Below, piece by piece: positions 57,081 to 61,643 of a stretch of DNA of 64,000 nucleotides; the first letter of the stretch is position 1; each line of letters starts with the position of its first letter. Under the pieces are notes generated by a model, which was given only the letters and a program-made list of their open reading frames with translations, was not told the DNA's origin and did not search any database. This DNA comes from Haloplanus sp. XH21 (GTDB lineage: Archaea > Halobacteriota > Halobacteria > Halobacteriales > Haloferacaceae). A program made the translations under genes and the position numbers. Where the stretch lies: the NCBI RefSeq assembly GCF_023276355.1, contig NZ_JALLPL010000001.1, positions 434,001 through 498,000 of the forward strand, read 5' to 3'.

Positions 57081-57207
57081 GTTCTTATCCGAAGCCGGGA
57101 CCAGGCTGTACCGTGATCGACCGACGGCAGAGAAAATCGACCGACTGCGTGGGGTCGTTCGGCCAAGGACAACGCTTAACCGGAGGGTTCGCCTGTTGCA
57201 CGATACG

Positions 57208-58677
57208 ATGGGTGTAATCGAGGACGTCTACGAAGACCTCGACACCGACGTGGCGTTCGAGGAGTTCGAGGCTGCCGTCCACGACAAGGTCGAGCAGATG
57301 GGGGGGCTCGCCGACGAGGAGACGGCGGCGATGCTCATCGCCCACGAACTCAAAGACGAGGAAGTGAGCGGCATCGCCGACATCGATCCCGGGATGGGCG
57401 AGGCGAAGTTCCTCGCAAGAGTGGTCGGCATCGGCGAACTGCGGACGTTCGAGCGCGACAGCGACGGGGACGAAGACGACGAGGCCGACGAGGGCCGCGT
57501 CGTCAACGTGGAGGTCGCCGACGAGACGGGACAGCTCCGCATCTCGTTCTGGGACCGGATGGCGCAGTCGGTCGTCGACGGCGAAATAGAAGTGGGTGAC
57601 GTGCTCCGCATCAAGGGCCGACCACAGGACGGCTACAACGGCGTCGAGGTGAGCGTCGACCAGGCTGAGATCGACGAGGACGCGGCGGTCGACGTGCAGG
57701 TACAGGACACCTACCACGTCGAGGACCTCTCGCTCGGCCTGTCGGATGTCAACCTGCGCGGGCGCGTGCTGTCGACGGACACCGTGCGGACGTTCGACCG
57801 CGACGACGGCTCCGAAGGTCGGGTCGCCAATCTCACCCTCGGCGACGAGACGGGGCGCGTCCGGGTGACGCTCTGGGACGAGCGGGCCGACCGTGCGACG
57901 GAACTCGACCCCGAAACGTCGGTCGAAGTGGTCGACGGCTACGTCCGGGAACGCGACGGCGATCTCGAACTGCACGTTGGCTCTCGCGGCGCCGTCGAGG
58001 AGATAGACGAGGAGATACGCTACGACCCCGAGACGACCGATATCGACGACCTCGAACTCGGCGAGACGGCCGACATCGCTGGCGGCGTCATCGAAACCGA
58101 TCCCAAGCGGACGTTCGACCGCGACGACGGGTCGGAAGGCCAGGTCCGGAACGTCCGGATCAAAGACGAGACGGGGGATATCCGGGTCGCGCTCTGGGGG
58201 GAGAAAGCCGACCTCGACATCGAGCTCGCGGACTACGTGGCCGTCACCGACGCCGAGATTCAGGAGGGGTGGCAGGACGACCTGGAGGCCTCGGCTGGCT
58301 GGCGGTCGACGGTGACGGTCACCGATCCACCGGCGGACGCGCCAGGGGCCGACGCCGGGGCGGCGGCGAGCAGTGACTCGGGGGCGGGGACGGAGACGGA
58401 GACGGCCACCGGGAATACGGGTCTCGATTCCTTCGGTGACGGCGACACCGACGACGCGTCCGGTGGCGGAGGTGGCGGAACCGCCGTCGCGGCCGAGGCA
58501 GAGAGCGAGTCCGTCACGTTCACCGGGACCGTCGTCCAGGCCGGCGATCCAGTCGTCCTCGACGACGGGACCGAGACGCGGAGCGTCGACACCGACGCCA
58601 ACCTCCGTCTCGGCGAGGAGGTGACCGTCCGTGGCCACCTCCGTGACGGGCGGATCGACGCCGACGAAGTCCACTAA
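57208..58677 (+). CDS. rpaC: Replication protein A-like ssDNA-binding protein, RpaC type
   Basis: A 489-residue protein with an N-terminal helical domain (MGVIEDVYEDLDTDVAFEEF) and repeated OB folds. Three copies of the strand pattern are clear: GRVVNVEVADETGQLRISFW, GRVANLTLGDETGRVRVTLW and GQVRNVRIKDETGDIRVALW, at about residues 95, 210 and 310. An Asp/Gly/Thr-rich linker then leads to a small C-terminal OB-like domain. No zinc finger is seen. It should coat single-stranded DNA in replication and repair. A CGCTTAAC TATA-like box 28-35 nt upstream supports the ATG used. Confidence 0.9.
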   Translation: MGVIEDVYEDLDTDVAFEEFEAAVHDKVEQMGGLADEETAAMLIAHELKDEEVSGIADIDPGMGEAKFLARVVGIGELRTFERDSDGDEDDEADEGRVVNVEVADETGQLRISFWDRMAQSVVDGEIEVGDVLRIKGRPQDGYNGVEVSVDQAEIDEDAAVDVQVQDTYHVEDLSLGLSDVNLRGRVLSTDTVRTFDRDDGSEGRVANLTLGDETGRVRVTLWDERADRATELDPETSVEVVDGYVRERDGDLELHVGSRGAVEEIDEEIRYDPETTDIDDLELGETADIAGGVIETDPKRTFDRDDGSEGQVRNVRIKDETGDIRVALWGEKADLDIELADYVAVTDAEIQEGWQDDLEASAGWRSTVTVTDPPADAPGADAGAAASSDSGAGTETETATGNTGLDSFGDGDTDDASGGGGGGTAVAAEAESESVTFTGTVVQAGDPVVLDDGTETRSVDTDANLRLGEEVTVRGHLRDGRIDADEVH

Positions 58678-58720
58678 TCGGTCGAACGCCCCGGACGCGG
58701 CCGCTCGGCCGACGGAAAGG

Positions 58721-58727
58721 ATTATAC
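58721..58727 (+). promoter_or_regulatory. TATA box of the histone operon
   Basis: ATTATAC, about 27 nt before the histone ATG, the standard distance for a leaderless haloarchaeal transcript. It indicates that the histone and the deacetylase-family gene have their own promoter separate from rpaC. Confidence 0.55.
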
Positions 58728-58750: not shown

Positions 58751-59182
58751 ATGAGCGTCGAGTTACCGTTCGCCCCGATAGACACGATCATCCGGCGGAA
58801 TGCGGGTGACCTCCGGGTGAGTGCGGGCGCGGCGGAGGAACTCGCACGGCGCGTCCAGCGCCACGGGGCGAACCTGGCCATCGACGCGGCCGAACGAGCG
58901 ACGGAAGACGGACGAAAGACCCTGATGGCGGCCGATTTCGGCGTCGAACGGGTCGTCGACCGGGAGTCGTTGGAACTCCCGGTCGCCCCCGTCGACCGCA
59001 TCGCACGACTCGAAATCGGCGAGCAGTACCGGGTCTCGATGGATGCGCGCATCGCACTCGCCGATATTCTGGAGGATTACGCGGACAACGTCGCCGCGGC
59101 GGCCGCGACACTCGCGAACCATGCCGACAGACGGACCATCCAGGCGGAAGATATCGAGACGTATTTCGCCCTCTTCGAATAG
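58751..59182 (+). CDS. hstA: Doublet archaeal histone
   Basis: A 143-residue protein with two histone folds in tandem: MSVELPFAPIDTIIRRNAGD...LMAADFGVERV and LELPVAPVDRIARLEIGEQY...IQAEDIETYFALFE. Each repeats the helix-loop-helix-loop-helix unit (RVSAGAAEELARRVQRHGAN / RVSMDARIALADILEDYADN). This fused, acidic doublet is the haloarchaeal form, which folds as an intramolecular dimer. The stop TAG is followed immediately by the ATG of the deacetylase-family gene. Confidence 0.95.
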   Translation: MSVELPFAPIDTIIRRNAGDLRVSAGAAEELARRVQRHGANLAIDAAERATEDGRKTLMAADFGVERVVDRESLELPVAPVDRIARLEIGEQYRVSMDARIALADILEDYADNVAAAAATLANHADRRTIQAEDIETYFALFE

Positions 59183-60187
59183 ATGCAGTTCGGCTACAGC
59201 GAGGCCTGTCTCGACCACGACACCGGCGACCGGCATCCGGAGACGGCAGACCGGTTACGGGCGATCCGAAAACAGTTATCCAGACGCCACGGCGTCGACT
59301 ACGTCGCGACCGACCCGGCGTCGGTCGACGCGCTGACATCCGTCCACGACGCCAACTACGTGACCGACGTGCGGGAGTTCTGCGCGAACGGCGGCGGCAA
59401 CTGGGACCCGGACACGGTCGCCTCGGGAGCGACGTGGACGGCCGCTCGCACGAGCGTGGGCCTCGCGCAGTGGGTCGCCGAACGCGCCCTCGCCGGCGAC
59501 GACGGGCGAGAGACGCCGTTTTCGATCGGTCGGCCGCCAGGCCACCACGCCCTCGCCGACGACGCGATGGGCTTCTGCTTTTTCAATAACGTCGCCGTCG
59601 CCGCCCGGACGGTGATCGATTCGGGCGACGCCGACCGCGTCGCCATCTTCGACTGGGACGTCCACCACGGCAACGGCACCCAGGAGATCTGTTACGACCA
59701 GGACGACGTGTTCTACGCCTCGATCCACGAAGAGGGCCTGTTCCCGGGGACGGGCGCCGTCGAGGAGACCGGAACGGGGGCCGGCGAAGGAACGACGCTC
59801 AACATCCCCCTCGCGTCGGGTGCGGGGGACGACGACTACCTCACTGCCGTCGAGACGGTGATTGGCCCGGCGATCGAGCGGTTCGGTCCCGACCTCGTGC
59901 TCGTGAGTGCGGGGTTCGACGCCCACCGTCACGACCCCATCTCGCGGATGCGCGTCTCGACCGAAGGGTACGCCAACCTCACCGACCAGCTCCGCGAGAC
60001 GGCCGAGGCGGTCGGCGCGGGACTGGGATTCGTTCTCGAAGGTGGCTACAGTCTAGATACGCTCTCCGAGAGCATCGCAACCATCCACGAGACGTTCGAC
60101 GGGCGCGTGCCCGTCGACGACCGGGGCGACCCGACCGACGCCACGCAGGACCTGCTGGACGACGTGCGGGCGATCCACGGCCTCTAG
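59183..60187 (+). CDS. Histone deacetylase-family zinc hydrolase (HdaI/AcuC-like)
   Basis: A 334-residue class I/II-type deacetylase. The catalytic His pair is in PPGHH (121-122), zinc ligands are Asp159 and His161 (DWDVHHGNGTQ) and Asp246 (SAGFDAHRHDP), and the transition-state Tyr289 is in EGGYSL. All essential residues are present. It begins at the base after the histone stop, so the two are co-transcribed. The substrate may be acetyl-lysine in proteins, possibly histone, or small acetylated compounds as for AcuC and polyamine deacetylases. Its stop overlaps the cca stop by 4 nt (CTAG). Confidence 0.93.
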   Translation: MQFGYSEACLDHDTGDRHPETADRLRAIRKQLSRRHGVDYVATDPASVDALTSVHDANYVTDVREFCANGGGNWDPDTVASGATWTAARTSVGLAQWVAERALAGDDGRETPFSIGRPPGHHALADDAMGFCFFNNVAVAARTVIDSGDADRVAIFDWDVHHGNGTQEICYDQDDVFYASIHEEGLFPGTGAVEETGTGAGEGTTLNIPLASGAGDDDYLTAVETVIGPAIERFGPDLVLVSAGFDAHRHDPISRMRVSTEGYANLTDQLRETAEAVGAGLGFVLEGGYSLDTLSESIATIHETFDGRVPVDDRGDPTDATQDLLDDVRAIHGL

Positions 60188-61533
60188 GGCGACGGATCGA
60201 AGTATCGGGCGAGAGCGACGCCGAACGTCTCGGCCAGCGACGTTACCTCGTTCCCGACCAACAGATCGTACTCGTCACGGAGCGCCCGCTCGATGTGAGT
60301 CCCGAGGGCGACCTCGAAGATGGCGTCGCTTTCGAGCAGCGCGTCGGGCGTCGTGAACTCCCGCTCGCGTTCGACGACGTAGCGGTCCCCGTCCAGAAAC
60401 GGGCCGTACACGTCGGCGTCGGCGTACGCGTCGTAGAAGCCGGTGGCGTGTTCGCTGACGTGGACGGGCGGGCCGCGGTGCCGACGGATCGCCGACAGTT
60501 CGCCGACGGCGAGTTCGACGAGCAGGACGGCCTCGTCGTCGGCGAACGTGGCGGTGCGAAGGGGGTCGAAGCCACGGCGATCGAGTTCGGACGCGATCCC
60601 ATCGAGCGATTTCCGAAGTTGTGGATACAGTTGATCCGCGACCAGATCGGGAGTCTCGAAGACGACGGCGACCGGGGTCGTGCCGCGGCGGTCGAGATGG
60701 TCGCAAACGGCGTCGGCGTCGATTGGATCGGGGTCCGTAGCGACGAACAGCGACTCGCGGGGGTCGGCCAGTAGGTCCCGGGCGAAATGCTGGAGACGAG
60801 CGACGTTTTCCGGGGCGCAGACGGCAGCGACGTTGCGCTCCGGATCGGTGGGATCGATCACGACGAGCGGATCGGCGAACGTGGCGGTGCCGTGTCCCTC
60901 GGGATCGAGTCGGATCGGCGGCGTCCAGTCGGCCGCGGCCTCGATGAGCGGCTTGAACCCGCCGTATTCGAGCACGAGGAGTTCGGAGAGATAGCCCGAG
61001 AAGCCACGCGTCCGGAGGTCGCTCCCGTAGGCGCCGATCCCGGTGAGAAAGGCCTTGAACAGACGGACATCGCGGGCGAGGTTGGGGTCGAGGCGTTCCT
61101 GCAGGTAGGCGTCGTGGAAGGGCGTGCGGTCGACCGCCGACTGGATCTCGGTCGCGTCCGCGACGTCGAAACAGGGGACGAGGTCGACATCGAACCCCTG
61201 AATGTCGCCGGTGACGTACGGATGTTCGGCGTACTCCTCGCGTCCGTCGGGCAGCGCGGCACGGCCGACGGCGAGACCGTACCGTTCCAGTTCGTCGCGG
61301 TCGAGGTCGGGCGGAAAACAGACGAAGAGATCGATATCACGGTCGTCGGCGAGCCAGGTGCCGCGCGCCGTCGAGCCGACCTGGACGATTCGCGCGTCGA
61401 CGGGGAGGTCGTCGACCGCGTCGCGCACCCGGTCGGTCAGCGTCTCGACGGCCGCCTGGAGGCGTTCGCGCTCCGTGGCGTCGGGCGTCACCCGCCGGGC
61501 GACACGGGAGACGACGGACTCGAAGTCGCTCAT
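60184..61533 (-). CDS. cca: CCA-adding tRNA nucleotidyltransferase, archaeal class I
   Basis: A 449-residue enzyme that adds CCA to tRNA 3' ends. The nucleotidyltransferase motif GSTARGTWLADDRDIDLFV has catalytic Asp66 and Asp68, with the third carboxylate in FDVDLVPCF. The central domain contains RDVRLFKAFLTGIGAYGSDL and the Arg/Tyr-rich TRGFSGYLSELLVLEYGGF, both typical of archaeal CCA enzymes. The ATG giving MSDFESVVSRV is used. None of the four tRNA genes here encodes CCA, so this activity is required. Confidence 0.96.
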   Translation of the reverse strand: MSDFESVVSRVARRVTPDATERERLQAAVETLTDRVRDAVDDLPVDARIVQVGSTARGTWLADDRDIDLFVCFPPDLDRDELERYGLAVGRAALPDGREEYAEHPYVTGDIQGFDVDLVPCFDVADATEIQSAVDRTPFHDAYLQERLDPNLARDVRLFKAFLTGIGAYGSDLRTRGFSGYLSELLVLEYGGFKPLIEAAADWTPPIRLDPEGHGTATFADPLVVIDPTDPERNVAAVCAPENVARLQHFARDLLADPRESLFVATDPDPIDADAVCDHLDRRGTTPVAVVFETPDLVADQLYPQLRKSLDGIASELDRRGFDPLRTATFADDEAVLLVELAVGELSAIRRHRGPPVHVSEHATGFYDAYADADVYGPFLDGDRYVVEREREFTTPDALLESDAIFEVALGTHIERALRDEYDLLVGNEVTSLAETFGVALARYFDPSP

Positions 61534-61643
61534 GGAGGCACATCCGCCCGCCCGGGCGAAAGCGTGTCGGTCCCACCGGACCGACCGACGGGATCGGGTG
61601 AAAACGAAAGCCCTTTCTGCCGACTGCAACTATCAGTTTTTGA

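Follow-up and report, generated by a model that had tools for sequence, protein, structure and literature searches.

A doublet histone gene and the gene of a predicted class II lysine deacetylase form a class-wide tight pair in haloarchaea, with one conserved histone lysine as a candidate acetylation site

Introduction

Among the described systems, the hstA-hdaI pair of Haloferax volcanii (HVO_0520 and HVO_0522) is the closest to the locus studied here, with members of the same two families standing side by side. According to a review (PMC2946573), hdaI overlaps the histone gene and is co-transcribed with it, and HdaI is reported to be essential in H. volcanii, a deletion not having been obtained. 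The H. volcanii histone, HstA, can be deleted and is nonessential, its loss slowing growth, and HpyA/HstA doublet histones are reported as nonessential DNA-binding proteins (PMC10128011). The Alba, Sir2 and Pat system of Sulfolobus likewise brings together a chromatin protein and a deacetylase, and acetylation of a lysine of Alba has been demonstrated there, as the review relates (PMC2946573). Alba, however, is unrelated to the histone and Sir2 is NAD-dependent, whereas the pair described below is known from its genes and acetylation is only a candidate modification.

The pair, its co-transcription, the essentiality of HdaI and the idea of the histone as substrate are already known for H. volcanii. 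Here we describe the pair in a window of 64,000 nucleotides from Haloplanus sp. XH21 (assembly GCF_023276355.1, contig NZ_JALLPL010000001.1, positions 434,001 to 498,000), its extent in haloarchaea, and the likely targets of the deacetylase. A first-pass annotation of this DNA had proposed that co-production of the two proteins suggests reversible acetylation of the histone or of associated proteins.

The histone-deacetylase locus of Haloplanus

The features of the locus are collected in Table 1.

Table 1. Features of the histone-deacetylase locus, in positions of the window
Feature	Position	Strand	Evidence and remarks
RPA-type single-stranded DNA binding protein	57196..58677	+	NF005551, 3.6e-225; ends 73 bp upstream of the histone gene
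Histone core promoter	58715..58725	+	BRE-like GAAA at -36 to -33; TATA box at -29 to -26, which reads TTAT
Doublet histone, HstA/HpyA type, 143 aa	58751..59182	+	PF00808, 2.1e-24; NF043032, 4e-28
Codon of K56 (AAG)	58916..58918	+	Interhelical GRKT loop of the N-terminal fold (residues 53-59 in the structural model)
TAGATG junction of histone stop and deacetylase start	59180..59185	+	Read from the bases
HdaI, predicted class II zinc-dependent lysine deacetylase, 334 aa	59183..60187	+	PF00850, 6.5e-88
Archaeal CCA tRNA nucleotidyltransferase	60184..61629	-	TIGR03671, 2e-146; convergent, marks the conserved locus

The histone frame opens with the ATG at 58751 and closes with the TAG at 59180-59182, and the ATG of the deacetylase gene follows on the next base, 59183, which confirms the zero spacing given by the first-pass annotation. 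The two genes thus share the same-strand adjacency of the hstA-hdaI operon, in another species and with a spacing of 0 rather than an overlap; two Haloferax loci (L019, L020) carry the same tight pair. A longer GTG start for the histone frame lies at 58631 in the list of open reading frames. The ATG at 58751 was chosen because the alignment of 145 genomes starts at MSVELPF and because the conserved promoter directly precedes it. Pfam places two CBFD_NFYB_HMF folds (2.1e-24) in the histone and a Hist_deacetyl domain (6.5e-88) in the next frame, and by the profile models used the Haloplanus genome has a single gene of each kind, PF00850 and doublet histone.

The histone has two histone folds with RxTxxxxD loops in one chain, which places it with the HstA/HpyA doublet histones. 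Loop residues R55, T57 and D62 of the first fold and R127, T129 and D134 of the second are invariant among 39 aligned histones. Its AlphaFold2 model has a mean pLDDT of 95.6 and finds its best PDB match in the doublet histone of Methanopyrus kandleri (1f1e). The acidic character noted at first reading holds: the pI is 4.69, and the range over 145 genomes is 4.27-5.26.

Conservation of the gene pair

One histone locus per genome was examined across 58 genera and 10 families of haloarchaea, 145 genomes in all. The deacetylase gene lies on the strand of the histone gene and starts between -4 and +24 bases relative to the histone stop in 141 of the 145, and this tight linkage spans 55 of the 58 genera and 9 of the 10 families. 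The histone-HdaI pairing is not a matter of chance and is class-wide, which now gives the published pairing its extent. Among the 141 genomes, the genes overlap in 46, abut exactly in 33, are separated by 1-7 bases in 59 and by 8-30 bases in 3. Near-zero spacing held in so many genomes argues for selection on co-expression; that exact zero spacing is special in itself was considered and rejected, since the spacing varies and closeness alone is conserved. An HdaI orthologue lies 605 bases from the histone gene in one further genome (G131), and three genomes (G001, G007 and G021) are without HdaI beside the histone. In the named loci that hold both genes, the two are linked in 36 of 36, a count that omits two copies of the window's own locus (L002, L003) and gives no independent rate because the loci were found via HdaI; two more loci (L040, L052) start inside the deacetylase gene and are uninformative on linkage. 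An RPA gene lies upstream of the histone gene on the same strand in 132 of the 145 genomes, at a median distance of 68, although some of the upstream sequences used do not extend far enough to show it, and the convergent CCA gene lies downstream in 121, was not found in 23, and had too short a flank to tell in 1.

The neighbourhood is possibly older than Haloarchaea, since it occurs outside them as well. Histone, deacetylase and convergent CCA genes were found together in six of six opened loci of non-haloarchaeal Halobacteriota (L329-L334), which were picked by eye from listed rows for having both genes close on one contig and so give no rate. The deacetylase gene lies there 0.6-4.4 kb downstream, on the strand of the histone gene, and no RPA gene was found in the 9-13 kb of these six loci. 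Near-zero spacing was seen in haloarchaeal loci only. Descent of HdaI from the CCA-side deacetylase of such relatives was also considered: a tree of 10 HdaI rows and seven of these non-haloarchaeal enzymes separates the two sets, and grouping them gave a borderline p-AU of 0.038, so that this descent is at most weakly disfavoured.

Promoter and translation signals

Ahead of the histone ATG, the AT fraction reaches 0.94-0.99 at -29 to -26 over the 145 genomes, and A stands at each of the positions -35 to -33 in 128-136 of them. The distance of this BRE/TATA pair from the ATG is that expected for a leaderless transcript. The histone gene has its own promoter, located after the RPA gene. Shine-Dalgarno-like motifs are not in excess before the histone gene (2 of 145, against 4.6 in shuffles) and were found in none of 141 genomes before the deacetylase gene (3.7 in shuffles); an AT-rich box before the deacetylase gene is likewise missing from the 30 bases examined in the 141 genomes.

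Since the histone gene has a promoter without a Shine-Dalgarno motif and the deacetylase gene has neither signal, a single leaderless mRNA of two genes with coupled translation would be the simplest reading, and it fits this pattern. The conserved promoter directly 5' of the histone gene would drive one mRNA for both proteins. Lacking start signals of its own, the deacetylase gene is probably read by ribosomes that finish the histone and restart at the abutting ATG, which would tie the output of HdaI to that of the histone. Together with the 141 tight pairs, these signals support well the co-production claimed at first reading.

As a separate observation, the BRE/TATA pair at 58715-58725 of the window, strongly conserved over 145 genomes, illustrates clearly what a leaderless promoter of haloarchaea looks like.

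The deacetylase HdaI

The PF00850 match of HdaI covers profile positions 1-295 of 298, and none of the NCBIfam models matched HdaI at a threshold of 0.001. H121, H122, D159, H161, D246 and Y289 are invariant in 142 of 142 orthologues; from the alignment with HDAC6, we take these six residues to be the catalytic histidine pair, the zinc ligands and the tyrosine. The full set of catalytic residues read by the first-pass annotation is thus present. By sequence, the best solved relative of HdaI is HDAC6 (2.7e-90), and acetylpolyamine amidohydrolases and HDAC10 rank lower in the same list of PDB sequence matches. The AlphaFold2 model (mean pLDDT, 87.7) is matched best, over its whole length, by Acinetobacter Kdac1, HDAH and HDAC6 (Z about 41). 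HdaI is like HDAC6, bacterial HDAH and Acinetobacter Kdac1 in its full active site and whole-chain fold; it differs from them in an identity of 30-38% in the structural rows, in forming a separate haloarchaeal clade (SH-aLRT 99; the tree holds 30 of the 171 distinct linked sequences plus the G131 sequence), and in a strict DPISR at the gatekeeper loop. In that loop, I253 is aligned with the leucine of DPLGG in HDAC6 and is isoleucine in 142 of 142 orthologues. Position 253 is the gatekeeper, which is glutamate in polyamine deacetylases of the HDAC10 type; an HDAC10-type identity was rejected on this residue.

By sequence and model, HdaI belongs with the class II zinc enzymes of the HDAC6/HDAH kind and has every active-site residue in place, and it most likely deacetylates lysines of many proteins.

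The single conserved lysine of the doublet histone

K56 is the sole lysine of the doublet histone of Haloplanus sp. XH21. This sets the protein apart within the HpyA/HstA type, with which it otherwise shares two folds in one acidic chain, and the same state, no lysine besides K56, is found in 40 of 145 genomes (G057 was scored from an upstream GTG start, which adds two lysines to its count). The position is lysine in 145 of 145 haloarchaeal genomes and arginine in none, and it is the only conserved lysine of the family; the matching C-terminal position, 128, is arginine in 144 and lysine in 1. Judged from the alignment, K56 is the only conserved lysine that could serve as a shared acetylation site, which narrows the acetylation question to one residue.

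The equivalent loop residue is lysine in 76 of 78 folds of non-haloarchaeal Halobacteriota and arginine in 2, the folds coming from 74 of 124 genomes and not including every histone copy of each. At the six opened loci it is lysine in four and arginine in two (G150, G168), and one genus holds both states (lysine in G197, arginine in G168). Among relatives with a histone and no PF00850 match, all 12 genomes, from 7 genera and 5 families, keep the lysine; that search covered PF00850 enzymes, and sirtuins may still deacetylate lysines there. HdaI is thus not needed for retention of the lysine, its conservation does not point to HdaI, and K56 conservation was rejected as proof of HdaI action. The loop lysine is presumably kept without HdaI for contact with DNA.

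Natural losses of HdaI

In the two genomes G001 and G007 (loci L145 and L144), which belong to one genus, the order is RPA, histone and then directly the convergent CCA gene, HdaI being missing and the histone intact; both keep the face-to-face histone as well. K56 is kept in these two genomes and in G021 although HdaI is missing. G021 is an assembly of 120 contigs, and its loss of HdaI could be a gap. The three losses are probably two events, since G001 and G007 share a genus.

None of the 145 genomes is without a PF00850 gene. Four of them (G001, G007, G021 and G093) encode a deacetylase of another type, with 65-100% identity to the G001 copy; G093 is the only carrier of this type among the 142 other genomes and has HdaI besides, and the next closest sequence, from G090, is 44% identical. 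The chance of finding this type in all three genomes without HdaI is p about 8e-6, or 2e-5 when the G090 copy is counted with it, both figures ignoring kinship. The pattern points to a constant need for a zinc deacetylase, which the alternative type can meet in place of HdaI. The persistence of the histone and of K56 without HdaI in G001 and G007 fits a needed deacetylase activity that is not tied to the histone, and this genus provides a natural test of what HdaI is needed for.

Three further observations concern these genomes. The alternative deacetylase, encoded elsewhere in the genome, may have replaced HdaI in G001 and G007. In G021 (L146), besides the missing HdaI, the face-to-face histone found no match, which holds for no other of the 145 genomes. 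At 59%, the doublet histones of G021 and G001 are jointly the least similar to the window's histone among 38 aligned.

Candidate targets of HdaI

The reading that we prefer, with a probability of roughly 0.62, is that HdaI is a general class II lysine deacetylase, co-expressed from one operon with a minor chromatin protein, whose indispensable targets lie elsewhere. It is favoured because of the linkage, the promoter pattern, the invariant active site, the structural matches, and the combination of an essential HdaI with a deletable HstA. Given that the histone is dispensable and HdaI essential, the need for HdaI cannot be put down to loss of histone function; an acetylated histone could instead do harm and so underlie that need, and deletion of the histone would not reveal it. 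The general-deacetylase reading fits better than acetylation of the histone, which is possible at one conserved residue; the indispensable target would lie outside the histone, which would be at most a minor substrate with a single site, K56. Against the preferred reading, an irrelevant histone would leave unaccounted for why HdaI is tightly linked to a histone gene and not to one of metabolism, and the slower growth on loss of HstA also counts against it.

Within the interpretation first proposed, co-production stands, and "associated proteins" is the stronger half, as conserved lysines are more numerous in the upstream RPA and in the face-to-face histone than in the doublet histone. Either or both could be the chromatin target, the operon grouping DNA-binding proteins with their modifier, which we regard as a tentative possibility with the odds somewhat against it. 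For RPA, the upstream position on the same strand and six alignment columns with lysine in at least 82 of 93 sequences (the upstream RPA frames of 400 aa or more, out of 132 genomes) are in favour; against it, the histone promoter comes after the RPA gene, and RPA was not found at the six older, non-haloarchaeal loci. The face-to-face histone has matches in 144 of 145 genomes; K7, K11, K17 and K48 are present in all 30 of the sequences compared, which were the closest among the 144, a choice that favours conservation, and the protein is described as highly expressed, with conserved exposed lysines (PMC11390915). Both proteins persist in G001 and G007 without HdaI, which counts against either as the reason for the enzyme. 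They are nevertheless better candidates for a deacetylase target than the doublet histone.

The Haloplanus genome has two 55-aa genes of the face-to-face type (L352:1432-1599 and L351:1429-1596), one on contig C1 and one on contig C2.

The histone itself is the weaker half of the proposal, with its one conserved lysine kept equally where the PF00850 enzyme is missing. As a one-site switch, K56 would have its charge neutralised by an acetyltransferase and restored by the co-produced HdaI, which would tune DNA binding of a sparse histone. The invariance of K56, its standing alone in many histones, the contrast with the arginine of the C-terminal site and the co-expression with HdaI speak for such a switch, as does the review, which proposes the histone as substrate and calls the candidate lysines conserved (PMC2946573). 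Lysine, however, is also the rule in other Halobacteriota, with or without a PF00850 enzyme, K56 survives in the three genomes without HdaI, and arginine replaces it in two of the six relatives with a deacetylase gene downstream. Moreover, HstA is nonessential, and the main text of the H. volcanii acetylome report, in the passages covered, is silent on the organism's own histone. We consider the switch unlikely. Its fullest form would be that Haloarchaea have cut histone acetylation to a minimum, with one doublet histone, one lysine (the C-terminal match being fixed as arginine) and translation coupled to that of its own deacetylase, a single residue per histone then being the whole switch; to this we give slightly less credence still.

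Least probable is that HdaI deacetylates a small molecule of the acetyl-polyamine or acetoin type and that the histone link is inherited gene order: the acetylpolyamine amidohydrolases and HDAC10 in its match list and the shared gene order at all six non-haloarchaeal loci, chosen for gene closeness, would allow the linkage to be old baggage, but near-zero spacing in haloarchaea argues for selection on co-expression, the invariant hydrophobic gatekeeper, I253 in place of the glutamate of polyamine deacetylases, disfavours the acetyl-polyamine substrates raised at first reading, and the closest solved relatives of HdaI are HDAC6 and bacterial lysine deacetylases.
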